Source: a virus. Taken from it: a stretch of DNA of 53,867 nucleotides. Shown here piece after piece: positions 1,829-24,611 of this stretch (its first letter is position 1; every line of letters begins with the position of its first letter). The position numbers and the translations under genes are program-made. The notes beneath the pieces are model-generated. The model was not told the origin of the DNA, made no database searches, and saw nothing but the letters and a program-made list of their open reading frames with translations. The stretch spans positions 1-53,867 of the IMG/VR virus record IMGVR_UViG_3300016457_000057; one strand, written 5' to 3'.

Positions 1829-2527
1829 ATGACTTGTAAGTTTTCCTTCGAAGTTCCTTTGAAAAGCCTTGAGCTTCAAGTTGAGTTTAGTGATTATATC
1901 TTCGCTATAGCTCCTTGGTTTGAAAATGAGACTTACCGTAACTTCGTACACGAACACCGTTCTCAACTCCCTCTCTATCTGGACAACGGTGCTTATGAAC
2001 AAGGAGCTTCTATTGACATTAAGAAGTACATAGAGCTCATCCAAACGTTACGCCCAGACGTAGTGGTTGCACCAGATGTGTATAGTGATAGTAAGGGTAC
2101 CATTAAACTCACTCGTCAGTTTTTCAAACACTCACTTCCTGCGGATACTAAAGTTATGATTGTACCTCAAGGACACAGCATCATCGAGTGGACACGGTGT
2201 TTACGTATCCTTTATTCTGAGTTTGAGAACCGTTTTCATTTGGTTGGTATACCTCGAGTGATGTATCCTAACAGATTATTTCTGTCAGTTTATTCATTTA
2301 AGTTGACTTCTAAACCAGTTCACATTTTAGGGTGTCCTGACCCTAGTGAGCTACCCGAAATTTTTGATTCGGGAGTACCTATTGAGTCATTGGATACTTC
2401 TTATCCAACACGTAAAGCGTTAGGAAAGGTAGGTCTGGATGATCGGATCGATTTTTTTAATGATAGAGTTTCTTTTAAATCGATGCAGAAGGCAGTAGAA
2501 GAATTTTTTCAATTGATTCAAACTTGA
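1829..2527 (+). CDS. dpdA: DpdA-like DNA guanine transglycosylase (TGT family)
   Basis: This 232-residue protein is related to tRNA-guanine transglycosylase. It keeps all three key aspartates: Asp52 in LYLDNGAYEQ (base binding), Asp83 in VVVAPDVYSD (base binding) and Asp189 in SLDTSYPTRKA (the TGT nucleophile motif). VPQG and LVGIP match the TGT substrate loops. It lacks the C-terminal zinc domain of tRNA enzymes, as expected for the short phage DpdA proteins that swap guanine for preQ0-type bases in DNA. queC follows 29 bases later, and queE and folE2 are elsewhere in the window. The start follows AAAGGAGG. A degenerate paralogue lies at 8898. Confidence 0.82.
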   Translation: MTCKFSFEVPLKSLELQVEFSDYIFAIAPWFENETYRNFVHEHRSQLPLYLDNGAYEQGASIDIKKYIELIQTLRPDVVVAPDVYSDSKGTIKLTRQFFKHSLPADTKVMIVPQGHSIIEWTRCLRILYSEFENRFHLVGIPRVMYPNRLFLSVYSFKLTSKPVHILGCPDPSELPEIFDSGVPIESLDTSYPTRKALGKVGLDDRIDFFNDRVSFKSMQKAVEEFFQLIQT

Positions 2528-2556
2528 GCTCGTTTCCTTAGAAAGGAGGTTGTTAG

Positions 2557-3321
2557 ATGGAATGGACGATTTGTGAACGGCCTGCGGAAGTTTATGATAT
2601 TGAACCAACGCAAAGAAGTGCTGTTGTGTTATCTTCTGGCGGCCTTGATTCTTCGAGTTTAATCTCGATGTTACTCAACCTAGGTTGGGACCTTACTTTG
2701 ATTCACTTTGATTATGGTTCTACTCATCATGAAGCTGAATATCACGCCTTCCTCCGGTTGGTTGAGCATTTTGGAATTGAGAAAGAGAGGGTTTATGTAG
2801 TTGATCTTTCGTCTCTGAAGCGATTGGTTTCTAAAGGAGTTGCGTTATTAGACGATCAAGTAGATGTACCAGAAGGGTACTATACCGAAGAAAGTATGCG
2901 TCAGACTGTAGTTCCTGGAAGGAATACGGTAATGATCTCCTACGGACTCGCCCTTGCGGAGTCCTTAGGGAAGAAGTTCGTTGCTATCGCAGCTCATGAA
3001 GGTGACCATTTTATTTATCCTGATTGCAGAATTGACTACCTGAGGTATATGTCACAAACAATTTTTCTTGCTTCTGATAGGAAGGTAAAGTTATTAGCTC
3101 CTTTTGCCCATCTTGCGAAATGGGAAGTTGTTTCTGTCGGGAATAGATTTAATTGTCCGTTTGAGTTAACGTGGTCCTGTTATAAAGGGGAGCCACCAAA
3201 ACATTGTGGCACCTGCGGTACTTGTGTTGAACGTGCTGAAGCTTTTCAGAAAGCAGGAGTTGAGGATCCTACTATCTACGATAAAGATCCTTGCTCTTTT
3301 CTTCGGAACAAGGAGGATTGA
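2557..3321 (+). CDS. queC: 7-cyano-7-deazaguanine (preQ0) synthase QueC
   Basis: This is the ATP-dependent enzyme that converts 7-carboxy-7-deazaguanine to preQ0. The PP-loop reads SSGGLDSS near residue 27, followed by LIHFDYGS. The C-terminal zinc site is the expected four cysteines in TWSCYKG...HCGTCGTC. At 254 residues the length is slightly above the usual 220-240. It sits directly after dpdA, with a strong AAAGGAGG site. In this setting preQ0 is most likely made for DNA rather than for tRNA queuosine. Confidence 0.93.
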   Translation: MEWTICERPAEVYDIEPTQRSAVVLSSGGLDSSSLISMLLNLGWDLTLIHFDYGSTHHEAEYHAFLRLVEHFGIEKERVYVVDLSSLKRLVSKGVALLDDQVDVPEGYYTEESMRQTVVPGRNTVMISYGLALAESLGKKFVAIAAHEGDHFIYPDCRIDYLRYMSQTIFLASDRKVKLLAPFAHLAKWEVVSVGNRFNCPFELTWSCYKGEPPKHCGTCGTCVERAEAFQKAGVEDPTIYDKDPCSFLRNKED

Positions 3322-3323
3322 GG

Positions 3324-3485
3324 ATGATTGAGGTTCTTAAACTAAAGCGTAAGGACAAACCTTGTGAGGTACCCGGTATGTTCGATTCTGTGTTAACGTT
3401 AGTTGTTAAGGGAAGTCGTTTTGAGGTATTGTGTTTAGAGAGAGCGATTTTTAAAGCACTACAAAAGTTAACCAAGAAGGTTTAA
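3324..3485 (+). CDS. Small hypothetical protein
   Basis: A 53-residue, lysine-rich protein (pI clearly basic by eye) that starts two bases after the queC stop, at an ATG preceded by AAGGAGGATTG. It contains GMFDSVLTLVVKGSRFEVLC. No family was recognised. The good ribosome site and tight spacing on both sides support translation. Confidence 0.6.
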   Translation: MIEVLKLKRKDKPCEVPGMFDSVLTLVVKGSRFEVLCLERAIFKALQKLTKKV

Positions 3486-3504
3486 TTTTACCTAGGAGGC
3501 TCCC

Positions 3505-3771
3505 ATGCAAATTACAGTTTGTGATGTTTGCGGTACGCAAAAGGACGTGCAACGAGTTAGTTTTTCATATGACCGCCGTGCCGATGCTGCTGGATCCGTG
3601 GAGGATGTATATGAAACTTTTGATTTGTGTTGTAAATGTTACCTGAAAGCTTTGAAAGCCGCCGTTAAGGAGGAGATCAGAAGGAAGCACCTTAACGAGT
3701 ACTTGTTCAATAAGAATTTGATTGAGATCATTAGGATTCGACAGGAAACTTCAGCTAAGAAATGGGAATAG
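3505..3771 (+). CDS. Small zinc-ribbon-like protein
   Basis: 88 residues. CDVCG near the N-terminus and LCCKCY near residue 50 form a likely four-cysteine zinc site, followed by a charged helix. The start follows TAGGAGGC. Such proteins are common in phage early operons and often bind nucleic acid or other proteins; no specific role can be assigned. Confidence 0.6.
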   Translation: MQITVCDVCGTQKDVQRVSFSYDRRADAAGSVEDVYETFDLCCKCYLKALKAAVKEEIRRKHLNEYLFNKNLIEIIRIRQETSAKKWE

Positions 3772-3780
3772 GAGGTACAC

Positions 3781-4002
3781 ATGGCATTATTGGAGAATGT
3801 TCGTCATCCTAAACACTACACTCGTGGTAAGATTGAGGTAATTGATTTTATTGAAGATCAAGGATTTGATTTCCTTGAGGGGAATGTAGTAAAATATCTT
3901 GCTAGGTATAAATGGAAAGGTGCTCCTTTAGAGGACCTAAAAAAGGCAGAGTTCTACCTTGAGCGCTTGATTAAGCGGGAAGAAGCGCGTCGTAGAGGTT
4001 GA
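3781..4002 (+). CDS. DUF3310-family phage protein
   Basis: 73 residues. HPKHYTRGKIEVIDFIED and GNVVKYLARYKWKGAPLEDL, then KKAEFYLERLI, are the hallmarks of DUF3310, a small family found in many phages and sometimes labelled nucleotide kinase without firm evidence. The start follows TAGGAGGT. A terminator-like hairpin follows, so this gene probably ends the first transcription unit. Confidence 0.8.
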   Translation: MALLENVRHPKHYTRGKIEVIDFIEDQGFDFLEGNVVKYLARYKWKGAPLEDLKKAEFYLERLIKREEARRRG

Positions 4003-4022
4003 TCCTCCTCCTTTCCCCGGCC

Positions 4023-4077
4023 GCCGCCCACGGGTAAAGTAGCGCCTTAATTAGAGGTTGCGAAGGGCGGCTTTTTT
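4023..4077 (+). terminator. Possible rho-independent terminator
   Basis: GCCGCCC (4023-4029) pairs with GGGCGGC (4065-4071), followed directly by six T. The loop of 35 bases is long but holds partial secondary pairing. It stands between the DUF3310 gene and the next small zinc-ribbon gene. Confidence 0.5.
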
Positions 4078-4085
4078 CTCGTGCT

Positions 4086-4334
4086 ATGCCAGCAACTAGA
4101 GATGTAGTTTTTTGTCCTAGGTGTGGTTATATAGTTGAGAAGTTTCCTACTTACCGATTAATCGGGTGGTATCGATTAACATATAGTATTTGCCCTTTCT
4201 GTCACTATTTTGGTAAGTTGAGAATTGGTAAAACGTGCTTTGACTTGTCTCACTTGTTTGAGTTTGTTTTCCTTCCACCGTCGTCCATTTTACGAAGAGT
4301 CCATCGTCGACTTTGTGGTACCGGAACCCTTTGA
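4086..4334 (+). CDS. Small zinc-ribbon protein, perhaps frameshifted at its end
   Basis: 82 residues in this frame. FCPRCGY (residues 8-14) and ICPFCHYFG form a clear CxxC-CxxC zinc ribbon. After about residue 62 the sequence turns basic and less protein-like, while the +1 frame (4225-4422) becomes more convincing and runs exactly to the next gene. Either the real product is a fusion through a frameshift near 4270, or two genes overlap. No good ribosome site was seen before this ATG. Confidence 0.5.
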   Translation: MPATRDVVFCPRCGYIVEKFPTYRLIGWYRLTYSICPFCHYFGKLRIGKTCFDLSHLFEFVFLPPSSILRRVHRRLCGTGTL

Positions 4335-4422
4335 AACCTTTAGGAAAAATTTAGTTTTGCTCTTGCCCTTCTTTGCAGTTACTATGATAATGACTTCGTT
4401 AGCCTTGCGCAGGAGTGCTTAA
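4225..4422 (+). CDS. Overlapping ORF with a membrane segment, or the 3' part of a frameshifted gene
   Basis: 65 residues from a TTG. The second half reads FYEESIVDFVVPEPFETFRKN and then a hydrophobic stretch (LVLLLPFFAVTMIMTSLAL) that would span a membrane. The stop directly abuts the ATG of the next gene, the coupling usual in this genome, which argues that this frame is translated. The start is unclear and lacks a ribosome site, so a +1 frameshift from the zinc-ribbon gene is possible. Confidence 0.35.
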   Translation: MVKRALTCLTCLSLFSFHRRPFYEESIVDFVVPEPFETFRKNLVLLLPFFAVTMIMTSLALRRSA

Positions 4423-5037
4423 ATGAATTTTAAACGCATAGCTCGTGTTAACGAAGAACTCGTTCAAGGCTTAGAGAATTTTTCCCTAGAGCGGCTGTTC
4501 TTCTCAGTTGGGTATAGTAACATTGTTGGTCTTTACACAGATGGGAAGGAAGCAGCTTTTGGGCCTCTTGTTACTTGTGGCGTAGTAATTGATGTGCACC
4601 ATACTCCCACAGCTTCTAAAGCGCCTTCCACCTTACGACAAATGGTGACCCCTATAGTTGATACTGTAGCTGGAGATGAGATCAATCGTATTGGTAATGT
4701 AGATGAAGCTATTCGTAGATCAAAGTTAAGAGTAGTCGAGCAGTTGGTACAAGAGTATCCTTCCTTGATCGTTGTTTCGGATCCTCTAATTCCTGAATTA
4801 CCCGCTGATTGCTTCCCCATACTTCGCGGTAGTATGTATGTTTACGTTCTTCGACTGGCTATGATATTGGCAAAGGAATTGCGTAAAGAAGCATTACTCT
4901 CATTGTTAAACGAGAACCCTGGGTGGCAAGTTTACGATTTAACGTCAAATTTGGGGTTTCTCTCGAAGAAACATCGAGAAGCACTTCTTGAGTACGGAAG
5001 AACCCCCCAACATAGGTACTACGTAAAGGTTAGATAG
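4423..5037 (+). CDS. Divergent RNase HII-like protein
   Basis: 204 residues. The N-terminal GKEAAFGPLVTCGVVID parallels the DEAGRGPLAGPVV motif of RNase HII, and the C-terminal GFLSKKHREALLEYGRTPQHR matches the conserved end GY.TKEH..AL...GP.P.HR. The first catalytic Asp is displaced (TDGKEA instead of DEAG), and the third catalytic Asp before ILAK is not obvious. It may be a non-canonical ribonuclease H that removes RNA primers, or a protein that has lost catalysis. The ATG directly follows the previous stop. Confidence 0.5.
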   Translation: MNFKRIARVNEELVQGLENFSLERLFFSVGYSNIVGLYTDGKEAAFGPLVTCGVVIDVHHTPTASKAPSTLRQMVTPIVDTVAGDEINRIGNVDEAIRRSKLRVVEQLVQEYPSLIVVSDPLIPELPADCFPILRGSMYVYVLRLAMILAKELRKEALLSLLNENPGWQVYDLTSNLGFLSKKHREALLEYGRTPQHRYYVKVR

Positions 5038-5038
5038 T

Positions 5039-5512
5039 ATGCGCGATAGAGTTGAGAATGCATTAGTTCAGCTACGTGAAAAAGTTTACTCTTTACTCAG
5101 TGTTGTTAGTAGCCCTCCGTCTGAGAACATAGTTGCTAAGCAGAATATGGACTTACAACTGTCTCCTGGACTACGTAAGGGGGGCGTTAATATCTTCCAA
5201 TTTCAAAACGCTGTAATTGACAATAAGGTTGTAAACGTAGTTGTGGAGATTTTGCGGGATATTGATAGACTACGTGATATAGTACCTATAGAGTCGAGTA
5301 TCGATTCGTACTTTGATAGTTTGATTGAAGAAGGTGTTACTTGGCGTGAGTTTGTTAAGAGAATGCAACGAGAGTTCATTCAAGCTTATCTACGAAAGGG
5401 GTTAACCATTACAGAGATAGCTAGAAGGTTAGGTATTCAGAGGACTTACCTCTCCCGAGTATTGACTGAGCTCGGTTTACGAGACGATATCCAACTAATT
5501 CGAAGGAGGTAG
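5039..5512 (+). CDS. Fis-type helix-turn-helix regulator
   Basis: 157 residues. The C-terminus (about 112-148) is a Fis/NtrC-type HTH: REFIQAYLRKGLTITEIARR, then LGIQRTYLSRVLTELGL. The rest is helical with no known domain, and no sigma54 ATPase is attached. It starts one base after the previous stop and ends three bases before the ribonucleotide reductase start, so it is cotranscribed and may control the nucleotide-metabolism genes. Confidence 0.6.
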   Translation: MRDRVENALVQLREKVYSLLSVVSSPPSENIVAKQNMDLQLSPGLRKGGVNIFQFQNAVIDNKVVNVVVEILRDIDRLRDIVPIESSIDSYFDSLIEEGVTWREFVKRMQREFIQAYLRKGLTITEIARRLGIQRTYLSRVLTELGLRDDIQLIRRR

Positions 5513-5515
5513 TGA

Positions 5516-7549
5516 ATGACGGACGTAATTACTGACTGGGATGACTTCGAGCGTGCTCTAATTTATCAAAGATATTCTATTCGTCATCCAAAGACTTCCG
5601 AACGTTTGGAGAAGACTTATGAAGATATAATTGATAGAATTACTAATTTCATCCTCTCGCGTAAGTACCCTGTCTCGAACGACCTATTATCAGAAGCGTT
5701 ACAAATGGCACGTAATAGGAAGTTCACGTTTGCAACCCCCGTTTTAATGAATCTAGGTAACCCTTATACAAGAAGAGGCGGATTTTATTCTTGTTTCCCG
5801 TTAGGACCTATTCCCGATTCAACTAAGGACATCCTGCGTTATATTGAAGCTTGCGCTAGCATCTTTCAGTATGCTGGTGGTGTTGGGTTAGACTTCTCTT
5901 CTCTGCGCCCAGAAGGAAGTGCTGTTGATCAAGCACAGGGAGTGAGTTCAGGCCCTGTTGGTTTCGTTCCTATGTTTGAAGCTACTTCAAAGAGTATTGC
6001 CGCAGGCGGTAAAAGACGAGGGGCAATGCTAGGTCAGCTTGATTACAACCACCCAGACATTTTTAAGTATGTTCGGCTTAAGAGAGATCGGCGTGATTTA
6101 TGGTCAATCAATATTTCTGTGAATGCCTTTGGCGATTTTTGGGAGCAGCGTGATCTGATTAAGGAGATCGCGTTAGGGATGTGGACTTCTGGTGACCCCG
6201 GGTTACTCTTCCCCGACGTACTTGCCGAGCATTCACCTTATCCTCCTAAGCTCAAACCTCTTGTACGTTACGTGAATCCTTGTGCCGAGTATGCTTCACC
6301 TCCCTTCAGTGTTTGCCATCTTTTAACAGGTAACGCCCTTTCTGCAGAGTCAGTCTCGGATTTTGAGGCGTTGGGTTATTACATGACTCATATTGGGAAC
6401 GCAATTTTGTATTTAACCTTGAAGCACAATATGGGCTTACCTAAGGAGCCAAAGTGGCTTTATCATAAGCTCCGAGAGCGAGTTGACCAGATTCACCCTG
6501 TTGGTATTGGTCTAACAGGAGTTGCAGAGTACCTCTTTAAGAAAGGATACAAGTACACTGATGTCGACAGAATTTCCGAGATGTACACCGCTCTTGCCCG
6601 CGGTTCACTTATTGCGTCGAATGAGTGGGCCCTCTCGACTAAAGTTGAGAAGGAGTGGGACCCGACGTACAAAGATGAACATCTTTCACTTGTTGGTTAC
6701 ACTAAGAGGAGCAGGAAATTTTGGAACACGACTACTCTATCTCAAGCGCCTACTGGTTCAGTATCTCAGTTCCTACGCTGTGTGTCTACGGGATTAGAGC
6801 CTCTTGAATCTTTTCAGGTTAAAAGGCAATTTCTTAATAGTGAAAATGAATTTCAGACCGTTATTCTTAAGTCTTCAGTGACTCCCTCCAATCCTACTAC
6901 GCTACCTTTTATACCCCCTGAAGAGCAGATAAAGGTTGTTTCTACCGTTCAACAAATAAGTCATACATCAGCGAGTAAGACCATCAACGTCCCGAAGGAA
7001 ACTACTGTTGAAGAGATAGAAGAGATTATCTACACAGCGCGAAAATATCGTCTTAAGGGGTTAACTGTGTACCGTAGAGGTTGTGCTTTGGAATCGATTG
7101 TTGAAGCAGACGAACCTGAAAGGGACGTGCTGATCGGACAAACTTACAAGTTTAAAGGCCTGAATAATATCTACATCACGGTTAATAGATCAACATCTGG
7201 GAAGCCCATTGAGGTATTTGTGTCTACCGGTAAGAGTGGGAATGTTGTTAATGGACTAGCTATGGGTTTAGGGAGACTTGTTTCTCTTGCTCTTAGGTCA
7301 GGAACCCGCCCTGAAGTGATTATGAAGTCTTTATCGGGTATTGAAACAGGAGACTTCTATGTGAACAGTCGTGTTGGCCGTGTTACCTCGATCTGTGACG
7401 CCGTCGCTAAGGCTCTTAGTGATACTTTACAATCAAGTGGGAAGGTAGAAGAACTATTTGACTTATGTCCTAAGTGTCAGAATTACACTCTGACACGTAA
7501 CGGACAAGGTTGTAAGAGTTGTTCTAGATGCGGTTATTCAACTTGTTGA
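5516..7549 (+). CDS. nrdJ: Class II (B12-dependent) ribonucleoside-diphosphate reductase
   Basis: 677 residues. It makes deoxynucleotides using adenosylcobalamin. TPVLMNLGNP and GGFYSCFPLG (first redox cysteine), VNPCAEY (NPCxE active-site loop with the radical cysteine), the SICDAVAKAL region of the TSCPD domain and a C-terminal zinc-ribbon-like cluster (CPKCQN, then CKSCSRCGYSTC) are all in order. No NrdB partner is nearby and none is needed. NPCA replaces the commoner NPCG. The start follows GAAGGAGG. Confidence 0.92.
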   Translation: MTDVITDWDDFERALIYQRYSIRHPKTSERLEKTYEDIIDRITNFILSRKYPVSNDLLSEALQMARNRKFTFATPVLMNLGNPYTRRGGFYSCFPLGPIPDSTKDILRYIEACASIFQYAGGVGLDFSSLRPEGSAVDQAQGVSSGPVGFVPMFEATSKSIAAGGKRRGAMLGQLDYNHPDIFKYVRLKRDRRDLWSINISVNAFGDFWEQRDLIKEIALGMWTSGDPGLLFPDVLAEHSPYPPKLKPLVRYVNPCAEYASPPFSVCHLLTGNALSAESVSDFEALGYYMTHIGNAILYLTLKHNMGLPKEPKWLYHKLRERVDQIHPVGIGLTGVAEYLFKKGYKYTDVDRISEMYTALARGSLIASNEWALSTKVEKEWDPTYKDEHLSLVGYTKRSRKFWNTTTLSQAPTGSVSQFLRCVSTGLEPLESFQVKRQFLNSENEFQTVILKSSVTPSNPTTLPFIPPEEQIKVVSTVQQISHTSASKTINVPKETTVEEIEEIIYTARKYRLKGLTVYRRGCALESIVEADEPERDVLIGQTYKFKGLNNIYITVNRSTSGKPIEVFVSTGKSGNVVNGLAMGLGRLVSLALRSGTRPEVIMKSLSGIETGDFYVNSRVGRVTSICDAVAKALSDTLQSSGKVEELFDLCPKCQNYTLTRNGQGCKSCSRCGYSTC

Positions 7550-7568
7550 CTATGTAAGGAGGTTGTTT

Positions 7569-8159
7569 ATGATTCGTCTGTTGAGTAAGGAGGATGTTAA
7601 GGAAGAGTTTAGGGACCACGTTTCTCGGTTAGTTCGGTGTCCCGTTTTGAAACGAAACCACACTGCTTTGATGTGTTTCGCGTGCTCACGTAGGGCAACT
7701 TGTGAGGTTGCTAAAGAGGTTGGGATCGCCGATTTGGATGTTGATGATGTAGTGTACGATAGCGCTTTTTTCAAGAAAGCAACACTTTCTCGTAAACTCG
7801 AACTTGACACGTTAATCCCTGATAAGAGGAAAAAAGAGAAGAAGGAAGGGCAGAAGACCAGGAAAAAAGCTGATAAAAGCTCTCAACCTACTTCTGCGGA
7901 GAAAAAAGTTGACATTTCTAAAGATAAAGTTGAACATAACAGTAACTCTTTGTCGGATGAAAAAGGTAAGGTTAAAGGAGGTAATGCTATGAGAGGTAAT
8001 AAGAAGAAAGAGATTTTGGAGTATTTGAAGGCACATCCTAACGCGAAAGCAGGAGAGATACGAAAGGCCTGCGGCGTTTCCCATGTGTATGCGACCAAAG
8101 TATTGCAACAAGTACGTCAGAATCAACCACAAGACACTGAAAACCCTCCTCAAGGTTGA
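7569..8159 (+). CDS. Cys-cluster protein with Lys-rich linker and C-terminal winged helix
   Basis: 196 residues in three parts. The N-terminal part has a cysteine cluster (CPVLKRNHTALMC, then FACSRRATC). A strongly charged Lys/Ser linker covers about 85-135. The C-terminal winged-helix/HTH (KKEILEYLKAHPNAKAGEIR, then KACGVSHVYATKVLQQV) suggests DNA binding. The ATG at 7569 follows AAGGAGG at 6-base spacing. A second strong ribosome site lies in frame inside the gene (see 7989). No family was recognised. Confidence 0.6.
   Translation: MIRLLSKEDVKEEFRDHVSRLVRCPVLKRNHTALMCFACSRRATCEVAKEVGIADLDVDDVVYDSAFFKKATLSRKLELDTLIPDKRKKEKKEGQKTRKKADKSSQPTSAEKKVDISKDKVEHNSNSLSDEKGKVKGGNAMRGNKKKEILEYLKAHPNAKAGEIRKACGVSHVYATKVLQQVRQNQPQDTENPPQG
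7989..8159 (+). CDS. Nested internal start: stand-alone winged-helix protein
   Basis: AAAGGAGG (7974-7981) precedes an in-frame ATG at 7989 by 7 bases, inside the 7569-8159 gene. Translation from it would give a 56-residue protein that is just the HTH domain. Full-length and short forms could form homo- or hetero-oligomers. This is inferred from the ribosome site alone. Confidence 0.45.
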   Translation: MRGNKKKEILEYLKAHPNAKAGEIRKACGVSHVYATKVLQQVRQNQPQDTENPPQG

Positions 8160-8262
8160 TCGAGCAGTTTTTAAAGACGTTGACTTCGAAGAAACGGAGT
8201 AGGGGGTACTCTTTTGAAGTGGTCTTTGAAGAAGGAAGTATTGTAGTGAGGAGGAGAAGACG

Positions 8263-8880
8263 GTGACAGAGCTTGATTTCCCTGATCTCAGTAAGGACCC
8301 GCCGTGCTTCTCCTCAGCCCAGCCTTGTACTAAGACTAATTGCTATTACTGGGAGCGTACTACTCCTGAGTACGGTAATTGTACAATCCGCGTCGCTAAT
8401 CAAGGTCCACACAAGCTAGAGGAACTGGCCGAAATTCTCAATCTCTCACGCGAACGAGTTCGACAGATCGAAGCTGTTGCTCTCCGTCACCTGGCGTGGG
8501 TTGCAACCAAACGTGGCTTAACTGAGAGGGTTATAAATATCACTACGTCCACGTTAGGCAACGTTTGTTCATGGCCTCTACGCCCGTTTGATGTGATGGA
8601 ATATCGTCGTAAAAGAGATCCTTCTGAGTTAGAGTTGATCGACAAAGCTTTTTATTTAGGCGTTTTTTCTCACTTTCTTAAGAAGTCAGTGGTTCTACCT
8701 GTTGCTGAGTGCTGGGTTCTTGATAAAGTGGTAAGCGGGTTTGTTTGCTTATTGTGCCCAGAAAGACCTTATTGCCCCAGTACTTCCTTAGGCTCTTCTT
8801 CTCCTGAAGAGTATTTAACTGTTACTTCGTTTTCTGAGATGATGAAGGAGATTAAGAAGGAGTTAGGGATAATTGCTTAG
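8263..8880 (+). CDS. Sigma70 region-4-like HTH protein with Cys clusters
   Basis: 205 residues from GTG after GAGGAGGAG. Residues about 50-85 (HKLEELAEILNLSRERVRQI, then EAVALRHL) are a sigma region 4 / NUMOD-like HTH of the kind that recognises -35 boxes. Cysteines before it (PCFSSAQPCTKTNC...GNC) and late in the protein (CLLCPERPYC) could hold zinc or an Fe-S cluster. No sigma region 2 is seen, so it is more likely a regulator or anti-/co-sigma factor than a full sigma. The 103-base gap before it holds a weak GAGTA/TACTC hairpin (8197-8211) followed by four T. Confidence 0.6.
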   Translation: MTELDFPDLSKDPPCFSSAQPCTKTNCYYWERTTPEYGNCTIRVANQGPHKLEELAEILNLSRERVRQIEAVALRHLAWVATKRGLTERVINITTSTLGNVCSWPLRPFDVMEYRRKRDPSELELIDKAFYLGVFSHFLKKSVVLPVAECWVLDKVVSGFVCLLCPERPYCPSTSLGSSSPEEYLTVTSFSEMMKEIKKELGIIA

Positions 8881-8897
8881 TCAGAAGGAGGTCAGTG

Positions 8898-9668
8898 ATG
8901 TGGTTAATGTTGGACACACCTATACCTCACCTAGAGCTACTTACGCAGTTTGGGATTTCCCACCATTTAGTACTCTTCGACGTAATTACGCAAAGTAAGA
9001 AGTGTAAACGTTTTTATAAGAAAGTAGCTAAGAAAGGACACTGGCTTACACTAGCTGGTGTGAGTGACTTCGATGATGTTTTACCTACCCTAAGGGAGTT
9101 AAAAGTTTCCGAGGTAGTTCTACCCTACGTTCCTAATGATAGGGAAGGGACTTTAAACGTCGTTTCTCAGTTTGTGAAAGAGGTTAGAAGTAACTCTCTG
9201 TTTGGGAATTTATCCCTTATGGGTGTACCTCAGGGAAAGAATGCTACTGATTTTTTCCAGTGTTTAGTTTCTATGGCAGAGAATCCTTATATTAGTGTAC
9301 TCGGTCTTAGTAAGACATCGGTAGTAACGGGTGTACTACCCACTTATTCAGCGAGTTTGCGAGAGTTATTCGGGCGTTTTGCTGTTCTTGCGTTCCTTTG
9401 TGAGGAGTTTACCAACAGTAAGCCGGTACACATATTGGAGCTAGTTACTCCTGATGTAGAGATACCGTTTTATTTACGGCTCCCTTTTGTAAGAAGTTTT
9501 GACACTTCTTTCCCTTTTCGTCACTTCTCACCACCTGAACCTCAACAAGTGACTTCTAACGGTATTGTAGAGTGGTTAGATTACACTATCGAGCTAGAGA
9601 GTAAAGCACTTCGTCAGTGTTTAGTTTGGGTTGAGAAGTACCTTTCACTTGAAGGGATTGAGGCGTAG
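8898..9668 (+). CDS. Second DpdA-like (TGT-fold) protein, degenerate active site
   Basis: 256 residues from the ATG after AAGGAGGTCAGTG; a GTG at 8895 is an alternative. It aligns with the DpdA at 1829: EVVLPYVPNDREGT against DVVVAPDVYSDSKGT, MGVPQG against MIVPQG, and KPVHIL with SFDTSFPFRH against KPVHIL with SLDTSYPTRK. The nucleophile Asp202 is kept, but the two base-binding aspartates are replaced (Ala53 and Tyr77). It is probably a partner subunit or an enzyme for another base. The arrangement recalls the eukaryotic TGT heterodimer. Confidence 0.68.
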   Translation: MWLMLDTPIPHLELLTQFGISHHLVLFDVITQSKKCKRFYKKVAKKGHWLTLAGVSDFDDVLPTLRELKVSEVVLPYVPNDREGTLNVVSQFVKEVRSNSLFGNLSLMGVPQGKNATDFFQCLVSMAENPYISVLGLSKTSVVTGVLPTYSASLRELFGRFAVLAFLCEEFTNSKPVHILELVTPDVEIPFYLRLPFVRSFDTSFPFRHFSPPEPQQVTSNGIVEWLDYTIELESKALRQCLVWVEKYLSLEGIEA

Positions 9669-16217: not shown

Positions 16218-17028
16218 ATGGGAACGATACTATTGCCCTTTTTGCCATTATAGAGGAAAGTCTCCTGATGTAAAAGGGAAGTTGTATGTAAATTGGGCAG
16301 CTAAACGCTATCTTTGTTTTCGATGTGGTAGTAAAGGTCGTTCATCTGAGTTGGACCGAAAGTCTTTAGTTCCTTACCGAGGATTTCTGAGTTCGGGACA
16401 CACTGACTCTTCTTCAACTTGGGATCCTCGTAGGTTTGTTGAGTATAGTTTGACAGAGGTTCGAGATCAATTCCCCGAAGTTTATCGTCTTCTTGAGAGG
16501 AAACACGCACTCGATCGTTTTCAGAAGGTGAACTTAGTTTTCTTTACTCAAGGTTATGGTTTAGTAATTCCTATAGATCAGGATAATTTTCAGATTCGCC
16601 TGTTTTCTAGTGCACCTGACGCACCGAAGTATTTGACTAAGAAGGGATTCCGTAAGAACGGGGTTTTGCTAGGTGCTGATAAGCTAGTTGGAGACTTTGC
16701 GATTTTTGTTGAAGGTATTTTTGATTATTATCGTTTGGAAGGTTTGGCCGTTTGTGTTTTTGGACACTTTATTTCTTCGTCTGTAACTAACCAACTCTTA
16801 GCAAAGGGGGTTAGGAAGTTCCTTGTATTTTGGGATGATGATTCGTGGGAAGAATCAGTGAGAGCAGCTGTAGAACTCTATCAGACCTACTTAGTGAAGA
16901 CTTACGCCGTTTTCTGTTTAGACGGATCTCCTTCAGATACTTCTCAACTGTGGGACTCCCCGTGTTTGGAGGTGACCTCGGGTTCTTTTATGAGTTTAAG
17001 AGAATTTGTGTATAAGGAGGTAGCATGA
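16207..17028 (+). CDS. dnaG: DnaG-type DNA primase
   Basis: 273 residues from the ATG after GGAGAGTAG. It has an N-terminal zinc finger (YCPFCHYRG, then LCFRCGS) and a Toprim domain with IFVEGIFDYYRL and FLVFWDDDS. It is shorter than host DnaG (about 600) and lacks the C-terminal helicase-binding domain, as in many phage primases. It lies directly after the helicase and overlaps it. Confidence 0.85.
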   Translation: MTTEWERYYCPFCHYRGKSPDVKGKLYVNWAAKRYLCFRCGSKGRSSELDRKSLVPYRGFLSSGHTDSSSTWDPRRFVEYSLTEVRDQFPEVYRLLERKHALDRFQKVNLVFFTQGYGLVIPIDQDNFQIRLFSSAPDAPKYLTKKGFRKNGVLLGADKLVGDFAIFVEGIFDYYRLEGLAVCVFGHFISSSVTNQLLAKGVRKFLVFWDDDSWEESVRAAVELYQTYLVKTYAVFCLDGSPSDTSQLWDSPCLEVTSGSFMSLREFVYKEVA

Positions 17029-17849
17029 GCGTTCCTGATGTACAATCACGAAGTGAAGGATTTCCTAAAGTTTACTTACCTTGGGTAGGAGTCGAGGGTA
17101 TCCGGTACCCTGTTTACGTTTACTACCCTCTTACTGAAATATTTATGCAAACACTTGGAAGTTTTAATGTGTATTGTTCTTTAAACCCGGAAGTGAAAGG
17201 CGTTCATATGTCGCGTTTTTACGAGGTAATTCAGGACGTCTTTTCTGAGAAGAAGTTGTTAACCCAAAACGTTTCCGACACGTTAGGTGCAGTTACAGGT
17301 CGATTAGAGAACGAGAATGCACGAGTAGAGGTATCTTTTACTTATTTAGTTTCTACTACTGCTCCTGTGAGTGAGATCGATCAGTTTCTACCCGTTGAAG
17401 TTAAAGTTACAGGTATTAGGATGAAAGGGTACCCTGATTATATACTGATAAGTGTTGACGTTCCTTACACGTCATTATGTCCTTGTAGTAAGGAAATTTC
17501 TCAGTTTGGAGCGCATAATCAGCGATCAGTTGCCTCTGTCACAGTTACCACTCCCCCCAACAACGAGGTCCTGTTTGAAGATTTAGTGGGTGTGGTCGAA
17601 AATGGCGCTAGCGCGCCAATCAGGGAATGCTTGAAGCGGGTTGATGAGAAATACGTAACAGAGCGTGCTTATTTGAACCCTGTTTTTGTAGAGGATATGG
17701 TTCGGTTGATTGGTCTTGAACTCGAAAAGCGTGCGCTCCCTTACCTGATTAAAGTTACTCATTTCGAGAGTATTCATGCACACAACGCTGTCGCGTTTGC
17801 TTGGTCATCGGATTTTAATTTTGCGCTGTTTAACTATTTAGGTAACTGA
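17025..17849 (+). CDS. folE2: GTP cyclohydrolase FolE2 (type IB)
   Basis: 274 residues. It hydrolyses GTP to dihydroneopterin triphosphate, the first step toward both folate and 7-deazaguanines. The signature is LCPCSKEISQFGAHNQRS, with the metal-binding cysteine; HFESIHAHNA near the C-terminus is the second conserved stretch. With queE and queC in the same window, its role here is most likely preQ0 supply. FolE2 works without strict zinc dependence, useful where zinc is scarce. The start follows AAGGAGG. Confidence 0.92.
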   Translation: MSVPDVQSRSEGFPKVYLPWVGVEGIRYPVYVYYPLTEIFMQTLGSFNVYCSLNPEVKGVHMSRFYEVIQDVFSEKKLLTQNVSDTLGAVTGRLENENARVEVSFTYLVSTTAPVSEIDQFLPVEVKVTGIRMKGYPDYILISVDVPYTSLCPCSKEISQFGAHNQRSVASVTVTTPPNNEVLFEDLVGVVENGASAPIRECLKRVDEKYVTERAYLNPVFVEDMVRLIGLELEKRALPYLIKVTHFESIHAHNAVAFAWSSDFNFALFNYLGN

Positions 17850-18349: not shown

Positions 18350-21300
18350 ATGGAGTTGCATACACACATTCTTGAGTATTGCCGTGCCTGTCCTCTATAT
18401 CGGAATTCCCTTAGGTTTGTTCCTCCGGAAGGGAGTGTTCACGCACCTATTTGTATAGTTGGGCAGAGCCCGGGTATTAATGAGTTCTTTGAAGGAAGGC
18501 CGTTTGTTGGAAAGTCAGGAGAAGAGATAGCCAAGTTTCTCATTCCTATCCTTGGTACTAGACCTCCAACCTTTGATAAGTTTTTAGAAACCCGTGGAGA
18601 ACATTTATACATTACTAATGCTTGTGTTTGTGAGGTCTTAACTCCTGTTCCTAAAGTGAAGAGGACTTTCTGTTATGACAGACTTCATACGGAACTTCGA
18701 CGCATTTCCCCAAGATTGATCGTTACATTTGGTGGACAAGCTCTTGAGTATGTAACTAGAGGTGAGCTTACTTCTATTCTGTCCGCTAGGGGGTTCCTAC
18801 TCCGTACTGAAGTAGGACCTGTGTTACCCACAATTCATCCGGCGGGTGTAATGAGACAGCCCGAGCTTCGATGGCTGTTCGAGGCTGATATGAGAAAGTT
18901 GGCCAGAATTGTTGAAGGGGCTTACTCAGAACCTTCTCCGTTGATTTTCCAGATCAATACCCTTGGAGCACTTGAGGAGTTGACAAGGTTGGTAGAGTCA
19001 CTCCCAGAAGACACACTGATGTCATTCGATTTGGAGACGACCGATACGAACCCGTTTAGATCGTCGATCATTTGTCTCTCCCTCTCTTTTGAAGATTGGG
19101 TTGGGTATACTATTCCAATGGATGACCCGATTGTTGTTCCTTACATCAAGCGTATTCTTGCGTCTCGATGCCGTAAAGTGGCCCAGAATTGCAAGTTTGA
19201 CCTCCGGTTCCTGAAGAGGAACGGGTTCTGTGTAACTAACATGTACTTCGATACCATGATTGCTCAGCACGTGTTGAACGAGAACCTCCCTGCTGACTTG
19301 AATACGCTTATTACACTGTATTTGGATTACCCAAAGTACGACCGAGAGTTAGAGAAGTTCAAGAAGGAGCATAAGATTAAGTCATATGCAGAAATTCCGC
19401 AAGAAATATTGTTCAAGTACGCAACTCATGACGCCATTGTGACAAGGATGATTGCCCTAAAGCAAATTGAGGAAATACGAGAGAAAGGGTACGAGGAGCT
19501 GTACTGGAAAGTTGAGTTCCCGGTACAACTCGCTTTGGTCGATGTTGAATTAACAGGGATCCTTGTTGATAAGAAACGAGTAGACGAATTAACGAAGCGT
19601 GTGGTGTCCGAGATTCAACAGAACGAACAACAGCTTTTTCAAGCAGTGGGTTATGAGTTCAATTACAAATCTTTTAAACAGTTGACTAAGGCGTTGTATA
19701 CTGATTTGAAGTTTCCTATAGTGAAGAGGTCCCCGACAGGAAACGCATCGGCTGATGAGGGAACCTTACAGAAGCTGAAGTCTAAAGTAGGCTCTGATCC
19801 CAAGAAGTCCGCTGTAATTACTTCGTTGCTCAAACTCAGAGCCCGTCAAAAGTTACTCTCTACTTACCTTTCTGGAGGTAAAGGAGGGATTTGGAAGTTT
19901 GTTGAAAATGATGGGAGAGTACACCCAGATTTTAAAGTTACCGGTACTGTGACCGGTAGATTAAGTGCTGCAGACCCTCCTATTCAGACAATTCCTAAAT
20001 CCGCAGTTAGATCTATTTTCACTGTACCTAAGGGGTACAAGTTCATAGAGGCAGATTTGAACAGTGCTGAATTGTATGCTCTCGCGTGGTATGCAAGGTG
20101 TAAGACCATGCTCGACCAGTTAAACTCGGGTGAAGATTTTCATATTCAAACGGCAGAGCGGATATTTAAGAAAAAGGTTAAGAAAGGAGATATTGAACGG
20201 AAACTGGCAAAGTTTGCCGTTTATGGTATCAGCTACGGCCGCGGGGCGCGTAGCATGGCTGATCAGTTCAAGCTTTCACTAGAAGAGGCACAAAGAATCG
20301 TTGACTCGTTGTTTGAAGCCTATCCTGAGATTCCAACGTTTTTGGACTACGCCGTACAAACCGCTCGGGAGCAGCGAGAACTTCGAAATGTTTTTGGAAG
20401 GACGCGCATCTTTCCTCGAGATTGTGCGTTTATGCCTGTGTGGGAAAGACAAGCCCTGAATTTTCTTCCGCAATGCGTGTGTAAGGGTTCTCTTGTTCTA
20501 ACAGAGTATGGTTACATACCGGTTGAAGAGTGTGACGGAGTTAGAGTTTTTGACAGCAAGGAGTTCACTCCTGCCGTTCTACAAGGACCTCGTTGGAAGG
20601 AAGAAGTAGAGATTACTACTTCTTTTGGACCACCACTATACGCAAGCGGCGATCATCGCGTGTTAGTACTAACAAAGGACGGGATTCAAGAACGGTTTGT
20701 CCGAGATTTGCAAAAAGGGGAGCTGTTAGTAGTTCCTGAGGTGAATACCCTGAATAATAAATTGAAGGAGCTAGAAGATTCATTTTTGCCTAAAGTTAAT
20801 ACTGTGAAAGGGAATGTTTCTTTTTATAAACCTGTTCTAGTAAAGAGAGACGCGCTTCCTAAGATCAGAAAGAGAGGTTTGAAAGGAGGGTCTCCGCTTC
20901 CTGAAACGGCTTACTTGTACCTTTCTAAGGTTTTCCGACATCTACCTTCTCGAGGCCTTTCTGAGACAGAACAAGTTCAACTTCGTAGACTGATACAGGA
21001 GAAGAGTTTATCATATGACCATGCTCGAGAGTTGTATACAAGGTTTAGGTCTCTGTTTAGTCCCGAGGAACGAAACGAACTCGATCTTTTCTTCAAGTCC
21101 ACCTTTTTCGAAGTTACTCAAGTTAGGAGTACAGGCCGGGTTGTAGAGATGTACGATTTAACCGTACAAGGCCCGCGACCCTACTACGTGTGCCAAGGTT
21201 ATTTGGTTCATAATAGTACTGTCGCAGATCATACTAATCAGACGCTTTGGATGCTCCAAATGATTTTTAACGAACGCGGGCTAGATGCGAGAGTGATAAT

Positions 21301-21472
21301 CCAACTTCATGATGCTATAATGGTGGAAGTTCATGAGAGTGTTTTGGATGAAGTTGTTGGTTTAATTCAGGAGTTGTACACGCGCCCTGTGGCTAATACA
21401 GATTTAGTGATCCCGGTTGAAATTGAAGTTGGGGATTGTTGGAAAGGAGGTGATCATTTGTTTGAAGAGTAG
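18350..21472 (+). CDS. polA: UDG - 3'-5' exonuclease - family A DNA polymerase fusion with intein
   Basis: 1040 residues before splicing, 793 after. Residues 1-195 are a family 4/5-type uracil-DNA glycosylase: Fe-S cysteines CRACPLY (11, 14), ACVCEV and TFCYDR, the GQSPG loop, EGRPFVGKSG, and TIHPAGVMR. Residues about 205-400 are a 3'-5' exonuclease (FDLETT at 226-231, AQNCKFDLRF, YATHDAIV). The polymerase has motif A IEADLNSAELYAL, motif B KLAKFAVYGISYG and motif C QLHDAIMVE (His987-Asp988). An intein (709-955) separates B from C. It is probably the replicative polymerase, able to excise uracil or sense it during synthesis. Confidence 0.93.
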   Translation: MELHTHILEYCRACPLYRNSLRFVPPEGSVHAPICIVGQSPGINEFFEGRPFVGKSGEEIAKFLIPILGTRPPTFDKFLETRGEHLYITNACVCEVLTPVPKVKRTFCYDRLHTELRRISPRLIVTFGGQALEYVTRGELTSILSARGFLLRTEVGPVLPTIHPAGVMRQPELRWLFEADMRKLARIVEGAYSEPSPLIFQINTLGALEELTRLVESLPEDTLMSFDLETTDTNPFRSSIICLSLSFEDWVGYTIPMDDPIVVPYIKRILASRCRKVAQNCKFDLRFLKRNGFCVTNMYFDTMIAQHVLNENLPADLNTLITLYLDYPKYDRELEKFKKEHKIKSYAEIPQEILFKYATHDAIVTRMIALKQIEEIREKGYEELYWKVEFPVQLALVDVELTGILVDKKRVDELTKRVVSEIQQNEQQLFQAVGYEFNYKSFKQLTKALYTDLKFPIVKRSPTGNASADEGTLQKLKSKVGSDPKKSAVITSLLKLRARQKLLSTYLSGGKGGIWKFVENDGRVHPDFKVTGTVTGRLSAADPPIQTIPKSAVRSIFTVPKGYKFIEADLNSAELYALAWYARCKTMLDQLNSGEDFHIQTAERIFKKKVKKGDIERKLAKFAVYGISYGRGARSMADQFKLSLEEAQRIVDSLFEAYPEIPTFLDYAVQTAREQRELRNVFGRTRIFPRDCAFMPVWERQALNFLPQCVCKGSLVLTEYGYIPVEECDGVRVFDSKEFTPAVLQGPRWKEEVEITTSFGPPLYASGDHRVLVLTKDGIQERFVRDLQKGELLVVPEVNTLNNKLKELEDSFLPKVNTVKGNVSFYKPVLVKRDALPKIRKRGLKGGSPLPETAYLYLSKVFRHLPSRGLSETEQVQLRRLIQEKSLSYDHARELYTRFRSLFSPEERNELDLFFKSTFFEVTQVRSTGRVVEMYDLTVQGPRPYYVCQGYLVHNSTVADHTNQTLWMLQMIFNERGLDARVIIQLHDAIMVEVHESVLDEVVGLIQELYTRPVANTDLVIPVEIEVGDCWKGGDHLFEE
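20474..21214 (+). mobile_element. Intein in PolA (247 residues)
   Basis: Block A is CVCKGSLVLTEYGYIPVEE with Cys1 after NFLPQ. Block B is YASGDHRVLVL, block F is VVEMYDLTVQGPRPYYV, and block G is CQGYLVHN followed by Ser+1 (STVADH). The insertion point is the conserved polymerase motif that normally reads PQGTAAD. The central 100-120 residues are helical, with no LAGLIDADG or HNH motif that I can see, so the endonuclease is either lost or of an unfamiliar type. His-Asn and Ser+1 should allow self-splicing. Confidence 0.9.
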
Positions 21473-23592: not shown

Positions 23593-23947
23593 TTATTACT
23601 CGTTGAAAGGGTATTTACTTGGGGATGAGAGGTATTTTGACGTTCCTTTAGTTCGCCCGGGGCTGCTGTTTTGTCGTTACCTCAAGCTCTCTCTGAACCA
23701 ATTACTCAAGAGGGGGTTTACCCCAGAGCTGCGCGAATTCATTCAAGAGTGTCATCAGCTCTCTGGTGGTGATGCTTTTTACATACTGACCCGTAAAGAG
23801 GGGAGTAACATTTTCTTAATCACTCCGATAGATAACTTGCAAACACGCGTTCAACCATATTTGTTCATCAACGGATATTTCTTGTGTGAGTTTACTAACT
23901 TTGCCTCTCATGTGGTTTTAGGAGGTGCTTATGCTGCGAGTAAGTGA
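23504..23947 (+). CDS. Hypothetical protein overlapping recA
   Basis: 147 residues from an ATG after GGAGGAAGG inside the recA 3' end. No family was recognised. It has a mix of aromatic and charged residues and no membrane segment. It ends 17 bases into queE. Overlaps on both sides and a good ribosome site support it as a real gene. Confidence 0.6.
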   Translation: MFPTKTESRQLYLEKRVLQILHPTLVRSTDYYSLKGYLLGDERYFDVPLVRPGLLFCRYLKLSLNQLLKRGFTPELREFIQECHQLSGGDAFYILTRKEGSNIFLITPIDNLQTRVQPYLFINGYFLCEFTNFASHVVLGGAYAASK

Positions 23948-24611
23948 GGTTTTTGAGAGCATCCAGGGTGAAGGTCCTTATGTTGGAGTCCCTGCCCATT
24001 TTGTGCGCCTACAAGGCTGCAATCTTGTTAATCTGCCGTGTGGCCCTTGTCGGATGTGTGATACGAGTTATGCTATTCCCATAAAAACTTCGCCTTCACT
24101 GTGTGCAGAAGGAGATTTTCTGCGATTATTGAAGAGTAAGAGACTGCCACTTCTTGTGATTACGGGTGGAGAGCCGTTACTTCAACAACGGGAATTGGTG
24201 CAATACCTGTCCAGAGTTCCTTCAGAGTTATTGCCAAAGTTAAACGTTGAGACTAACGGGACCATTCCTCCTAGTAGGGAATGGGCGAAGTTTGATACTC
24301 TTTTTTCAGTTAGTCCGAAGTTACACACTTCATCCTATCTTAACTTAACGTCTTTTCGAGGGTTTAAAAAGATACTTAAGGTTGTGTATAATAAGAAGGT
24401 TGATGATTACACTTTTGCGCAGTTTGTGTTCAAGTGCGCTTCCCAGCTCGGAATTGCTTCGGAAGAAGATATTTACGTAATGCCTGAGTCTCGAACTAGG
24501 GATTCTTACGTAGAACAAGGTCTCGCGTGTTTTGAGTTTTGCATGAAGTACGGGTTTAGGTTTGGTACCCGTGAACACTTAGTTCTTTTTAATGGAGTTG
24601 CGGGAAAGTGA
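23931..24611 (+). CDS. queE: 7-carboxy-7-deazaguanine synthase QueE
   Basis: 226 residues. A radical-SAM enzyme that turns 6-carboxytetrahydropterin into 7-carboxy-7-deazaguanine. EVFESIQGEGPYVGVPAHFVR and LQGCNL are characteristic, followed by a non-standard cluster (CNLVNLPCGPCRMCDT) with an insertion between the first and later cysteines, a known QueE variation. VITGGEPLLQ and VETNGTIPP are the radical-SAM and substrate motifs. The start is the ATG after AGGAGG. Confidence 0.93.
   Translation: MLRVSEVFESIQGEGPYVGVPAHFVRLQGCNLVNLPCGPCRMCDTSYAIPIKTSPSLCAEGDFLRLLKSKRLPLLVITGGEPLLQQRELVQYLSRVPSELLPKLNVETNGTIPPSREWAKFDTLFSVSPKLHTSSYLNLTSFRGFKKILKVVYNKKVDDYTFAQFVFKCASQLGIASEEDIYVMPESRTRDSYVEQGLACFEFCMKYGFRFGTREHLVLFNGVAGK

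Follow-up and report, generated by a model that had tools for sequence, protein, structure and literature searches.

A DpdA3-like guanine transglycosylase and a maintained, probably non-catalytic homologue encoded by an uncultured phage

Two transglycosylase homologues in one phage

Why would a phage keep two homologues of a guanine transglycosylase, one of them lacking residues of the active site? The question is raised by virus record IMGVR_UViG_3300016457_000057, a 53,867-base fragment of a larger uncultured phage, which was analysed at its full length and is called the window here. It encodes P1, a predicted active DpdA3-like guanine transglycosylase, and P2, a distant homologue of P1. We found that P2 is very probably a DpdA homologue that has been maintained with a base-exchange site that no longer works, a reading that rests on two orthologous sequences. 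In the explanation that we favour, to which we give a probability of about 45%, P1 would exchange guanine for preQ0 in phage DNA and P2 would be its non-catalytic partner.

1829 to 2527, + strand: P1, DpdA3-like guanine transglycosylase, predicted active from its model, VIA comparison, DUF6610 match and three aspartates (232 residues; AlphaFold2 predicted local distance difference test score, pLDDT, 95.2)
1982 to 1984, + strand: codon of P1 Asp52 (Asp in 91 of 92 family members)
2075 to 2077, + strand: codon of P1 Asp83 (Asp in 91 of 92)
2393 to 2395, + strand: codon of P1 Asp189 (Asp in 92 of 92)
8898 to 9668, + strand: P2, putative pseudo-transglycosylase and distant homologue of P1, so named from its model, VIA comparison, active-site losses and selection (256 residues; pLDDT 90.5)
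9054 to 9056, + strand: P2 Ala53, beside a deletion where the family has Asp-Asn
9126 to 9128, + strand: P2 Tyr77, at the position of the base-reading Asp
9501 to 9503, + strand: P2 Asp202, at the nucleophile position (kept in P2, Asn in its orthologue)

A first-pass annotation had described the proteins starting at 1829 and 8898 as two DpdA-like homologues that align over most of their length. The homology is borne out: BLASTP aligns P1 and P2 at E 6e-9, phmmer started from P1 finds P2 at E 2e-6, both proteins match phrog_20335, and both models have the TIM-barrel fold of tRNA-guanine transglycosylases (TGTs). The extent of the alignment had been overstated, as the BLASTP match (30% identity) covers 158 residues, about two thirds of P1.

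The AlphaFold2 models were built on alignments of 61 sequences. In VIA comparisons, in which families missing from the lists carry no weight, P1 scored Z 16.1 against the archaeosine TGT 1iq8 (root mean square deviation, rmsd, 3.1; 213 residues aligned) and Z 15.4 against the bacterial DpdA 7ui4 (rmsd 3.0; 216 aligned), and P2 scored Z 14.9 against the archaeosine TGT 1j2b (rmsd 3.3; 218 aligned) and Z 14.8 against 7ui4 (rmsd 3.7; 221 aligned). The top four Foldseek matches of P1 in the PDB are tRNA-guanine transglycosylases, followed by other barrels; for P2 all of the top 20 are, with other barrels after them. Because the unrelated barrel 6rg0 reaches Z 15.1 with P1, the fold alone is no proof of kinship to TGTs, which is strengthened by the common motifs and, weakly, by a profile comparison that matches DpdA 7ui4 at E 0.013. 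The 7ui4 protein shares the fold of P1 and P2; however, its chain has 436 residues against 232 to 256, and the aligned part is 12 to 16% identical. P1 and P2 are presumably too short to hold the zinc domain of TGTs.

P1 keeps the nucleophile and two further active-site aspartates, and all three align with the invariant aspartates of the family, as had been claimed for residues 52, 83 and 189. By motif, we take Asp52 to be the equivalent of Asp102 of the Zymomonas TGT, and likewise assume that Asp83 stands for its base-reading Asp156 and Asp189 for its nucleophile, Asp280. The 92 family members include P1, P2 and some near-copies; 77 of them came from a scan keeping the best 80 of 365 matches (three were the window's own copies), and the set is biased towards Asp52 since one of the two patterns used in that scan holds Leu-Asp-Asn. 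Other scans for P2 used patterns without it.

In Pfam, P1 scores 33 bits with DUF6610 (cut-off 27) and 16.3 bits with the TGT family, below its cut-off of 26.3, and P2 has no match. Given the match of P1, DUF6610, whose function is unknown in Pfam, may be a transglycosylase family. By tblastn and in our tree, P1 is related to proteins of CP220 (Campylobacter), immuto (Flavobacterium) and phiST-type (Cellulophaga) phages, which we take to be the phage DpdA3 subfamily; among the matched records, only the immuto protein bears the annotation DNA guanine transglycosylase. Apart from the window's own copies, no relative above 40% identity to P1 was among the matches listed (the best 80 of 365 in one scan).

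Active-site losses in P2 and its orthologue

P2 was said to carry Ala53, Tyr77 and Asp202 at the three catalytic positions. Those residues are indeed there (counted from the ATG at 8898), though not by a plain Asp-to-Ala exchange, as the Asp52 position falls in a deletion. The segment missing from P2 also held an aromatic residue four positions past Asp52, which is Phe or Tyr in 53 of 59 catalytic members. In addition, the family-invariant Gly168 is replaced by Glu. P2 is the sole member among the 92 that lacks both of the first two aspartates. The ATG is favoured as start over a GTG at 8895 (8895 to 9668, 257 residues) because a GGAGG ends six bases before it.

We considered whether the losses could be artefacts. 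A frameshift hiding the Asp-Asn of P2 was rejected, since the two other frames hold stops and contain no Asp-Asn motif there. The window lies nearly whole within three IMG/VR contigs from one sample (78, 107 and 137 kb; 99.8 to 100% identity), and a contig of 96,904 bases from a metagenome-assembled genome (MAG; bacterium isolate AUK014) matches it at 99.9% over the 18 kb compared. The P2 DNA is identical in all four, which may not be independent samples, making a lone assembly error unlikely.

Using the window phage's ribonucleotide reductase as query, we found a syntenic relative, L125 (IMGVR_UViG_3300033156_000573; 24,313 bases). Its reductase is 81 to 88% identical to that of the window, and the gene order is the same along the contig except for a few small genes gained or lost. 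It encodes an orthologue of P2:

L125, 6755 to 7519: P2 orthologue (254 residues; 55% identical to P2 by tblastn)

The orthologue keeps the Leu-Asp-Asn of Asp52, has Thr in place of Asp83 and has Asn in place of the nucleophile. The base-reading aspartate is thus gone from both proteins, replaced differently, and the second catalytic aspartate missing from P2 is not the one missing from the orthologue. Because two of the three active-site aspartates are missing from P2, and another two from its orthologue, we class P2 as a homologue and not as an active member of the TGT/DpdA family.

Across 31 columns in the three active-site segments, identity between the P2 orthologues is 48%, compared with 55% in the rest of the alignment; in the same columns, 121 catalytic pairs share at least 68%, with a median of 84%. 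These pairs were taken among the 59 catalytic members at 45 to 65% identity elsewhere, and come from 36 members, so that they are not independent. The P2 orthologues are 30% identical in the Asp52 segment (catalytic pairs: minimum 67%, median 90%) and again 30% in the Asp83 segment (minimum 40%, median 80%). Judged from these alignments, the relaxation is located in the two base-side segments; the nucleophile segment as a whole is conserved, with the exception of its key residue.

P2 nevertheless appears clearly constrained. The open frame is intact in both phages, and nonsynonymous divergence (dN) between them is 0.33 against a synonymous divergence (dS) of 2.49, indicating purifying selection; this is judged from P2 alone, as NG86 gave a dS for no other gene. 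Along the protein, numbered from 8895, identity is 67 to 80% over residues 106 to 135 and 151 to 210, 47% at 136 to 150 and 33% over 61 to 105, and 59 residues common to both orthologues occur in at most 10% of the 59 catalytic members. We read this as selection for the scaffold rather than the base pocket, which would make P2 a pseudoenzyme.

Further scans for P2 orthologues yielded only L125, with the genome_contigs scan giving only the MAG copy of the window phage and the plasmid scan none. The profiles used in the family searches contain P1 and P2, so recovering these two proves nothing; recovering L125 does count. Searches of the open-licence literature showed no description of a dead DpdA homologue that has been maintained, which is weak evidence of absence.

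Genes for preQ0 synthesis

The window also encodes enzymes for the synthesis of preQ0:

2557 to 3321, + strand: QueC, preQ0 synthase, 29 bases downstream of P1 (PF06508, E 9e-54; TIGR00364, 156 bits against a cut-off of 150)
17025 to 17849, + strand: FolE2, a GTP cyclohydrolase of type IB, which catalyses the opening step of the preQ0 pathway (PF02649, E 9e-70)
23925 to 24611, + strand: QueE-like radical S-adenosylmethionine enzyme (above cut-off for PF13353, a 4Fe-4S cluster domain that is not specific to QueE)

The QueE-like assignment is supported by phmmer, which reached the protein at E 5e-10 at best when five phage QueE proteins served as queries. A QueD gene is carried by one of the three longer overlapping assemblies and also by a different contig of the MAG. 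It is therefore probably a gene of the window phage, with some doubt because the assemblies branch after about 79 kb. QueF (PF14489) was found in none of the five records searched. The relative phage retains FolE2 (75%) and the QueE-like gene (66%). At related loci, at least one gene for QueC, QueE, FolE/FolE2 or QueD lies in the flanks in 71 of 96 cases and at least two in 57, in a survey that had no control set and whose reference proteins came from the window and from seven of the loci surveyed.

With QueC, FolE2 and a QueE-like enzyme encoded in the window, and QueD on one assembly, the base that P1 inserts is probably preQ0. In the mechanism that we propose, the phage would make preQ0 itself through FolE2, QueD, QueE and QueC, and P1, as a small DNA-guanine transglycosylase, would swap guanine in the phage DNA for it; the modified base would shield the DNA from nucleases. 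P2 would have lost base exchange and kept the barrel, and as a non-catalytic subunit paired with P1 it could help to hold or position the DNA, the role proposed for QTRT2 towards tRNA in its pairing with QTRT1. The homology, fold, residue losses in both orthologues, selection on P2 and synthesis genes (QueD with some doubt) come from the computed comparisons; the identity of the base, the use of DNA as substrate and, most of all, the contact between P1 and P2 are inferred.

Is P2 a partner of P1?

The pairing of an active with an inactive homologue, which the first-pass annotation had likened to the eukaryotic enzyme, has a precedent. According to PMC6165067, the nucleophile Asp of mouse QTRT2 is replaced by Glu and the second Asp by Cys, the segment that follows protrudes into the pocket, and QTRT1 alone is cited as inactive. 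QTRT1/QTRT2 and P1/P2 are alike in comprising an intact catalytic protein and a homologue that has replaced catalytic aspartates and a changed segment past the first Asp (PMC6165067). They differ in that P1 and P2 are not sister genes, that DNA would be the substrate instead of tRNA, and that the P1/P2 dimer is hypothetical. A QTRT1/QTRT2-like heterodimer of P1 and P2 is our best guess. The phage proteins of the DpdA3 subfamily resemble P1 in sequence, position in the tree, the three aspartates and a preQ0-type gene context. Each of seven named genomes has one copy, in contrast to the window phage with its second copy without a working site. For phage 9g, PMC6884629 reports that DpdA did not need the host TGT.

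Several observations weigh against a partnership. One family gene was found in 95 of 96 more distantly related records scanned whole (50 and 46; mostly fragments), among them all seven phage genomes that carry a name; as a rule, then, members of the family do without a partner of this kind. The remaining record, G014, has two, both with all the aspartates; the second is a far-off DpdA-like domain (L117, 14628 to 15113, - strand) within a frame of 1652 residues, its three motif aspartates recognised by eye; G067 and G094 each give two pieces, which we read as one gene each from their positions and the frame length. P1 was not seen in L125, whose contig stops 1,338 bases before the reductase; in the window P1 lies about 3 kb before it, so that its place in L125 would be beyond the end of the contig, and co-occurrence of P1 and P2 therefore rests on one phage. 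The two genes are 6.4 kb apart, and P2 itself still has the nucleophile Asp, in a segment that is 82% identical between the orthologues apart from the change to Asn (catalytic pairs: minimum 45%, median 73%). P2 also has the second highest dN of nine genes, faster than seven of its eight neighbours (0.20 to 0.35).

The tree points the same way. P1 groups with L040 and L041 (support 100/97), and the P2 pair stands beside the phiST/MA9V-3 group of Cellulophaga and Chryseobacterium phage proteins (98/79, just under the tool's threshold star), with the caveat of long branches and an unsettled bootstrap. P2 thus sits with Bacteroidota-phage enzymes and P1 in another clade, unlike a duplicated pair, and a recent duplication of P1 is rejected; the two probably came from different branches. 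Altogether, the observation of two homologues, one of them without the base-binding aspartates, is confirmed and its interpretation partly supported: the orthologue also lacks catalytic aspartates (though other ones), P2 is under purifying selection and QTRT2 has comparable losses (PMC6165067), while the single-copy records argue against a heterodimer general to the family, the very comparison that had been suggested as its test.

The same facts can be explained in other ways. P2 could be a pseudoenzyme with its own job, a stand-alone binder of DNA or of a modified base that acts, for instance, as a reader of the modified genome or as an adaptor to proteins of replication or transcription. It has been kept despite its lost residues, belongs to another clade than P1, and is encoded at a distance from P1, where its neighbours are a gene with a sigma-70 region 4 motif and genes that, from their translations, we presume to be Mre11/Rad50-like. 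We consider this unlikely, if far from negligible, because nothing positive indicates a specific partner or ligand and the phage carries an active homologue, P1, with which a dimer of the TGT type would most simply be formed. P2 might also be the decaying remnant of a second transglycosylase that came in from another phage; drift once its function had been lost would account for the different residues lost in the two lineages, for the high dN and for the rarity of the P1/P2 pair. Such decay is hard to reconcile with frames intact at 55% identity, with a dN so far below dS, and with the conserved stretches and 59 orthologue-specific residues, and we think it quite improbable.

P2 might, again, still be active, as a transglycosylase or glycosylase that has a new base specificity and uses Asp202; this would fit its retention of that residue and of the pocket Gln and His, as well as the conserved nucleophile segment. 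Recognition of another base had been proposed from the outset; we disfavour it, as the two orthologues differ both in the nucleophile (Asn in L125) and in the replacement at the base-reading position (Thr, not Tyr). With the two base-side segments at 30% identity and the Asp52 position and nearby aromatic deleted, we regard it as a long shot. Finally, P1 might act on deoxynucleotides or tRNA, with P2 serving that reaction. A thymidylate-kinase-like gene (a broad group of P-loop kinases) in the flanks of 45 of 96 DpdA3-like loci, e.g. L009, L012, L013, L014 and L015, would suit synthesis of a modified deoxynucleoside triphosphate, and the fold does not decide between tRNA and DNA because P1 matches TGT and DpdA 7ui4 equally well. 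The related DpdA3 group was reportedly assigned to exchange in DNA by Cui et al. 2023, and we hold this last alternative to be very improbable.

Returning to P2 as the partner of P1, the proposal can be put in a stricter form: a heteromeric DNA-guanine transglycosylase in which P1 depends obligatorily on the dead P2 as its DNA-positioning subunit, and thus an independent viral invention of QTRT1/QTRT2-type pairing. This is tentative, and we lean somewhat against it. Should P2 indeed pair with P1, this phage would have its own version of the active/inactive TGT of eukaryotes, and the role of the dead subunit could be tested in a small two-gene system.

Further observations on the window phage and its relatives

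The 137-kb and 107-kb assemblies of the window phage (L020, L023, L029) part after about 79 kb, beside a 1.2-kb repeat of about 90% identity, suggesting either a branching assembly or two phage forms. At 18350 to 21472, the window encodes a family A DNA polymerase with an N-terminal domain of the uracil-DNA-glycosylase superfamily (PF03167, E 4e-19) and an intein (PF14890); in the relative phage (L132), nothing matches the stretch from about residue 805 to 915 of this polymerase. The ribonucleotide reductase of L125 (1339 to 3897) has, by sight, an intein-like insertion of about 170 residues after residue 257, and the window's copy is without it. Relatives of P1 in the Bacillus phages MW354678, MW354669 and MW354677 overlie annotations that include NAD biosynthesis, integrase and polynucleotide kinase, names that are probably wrong.

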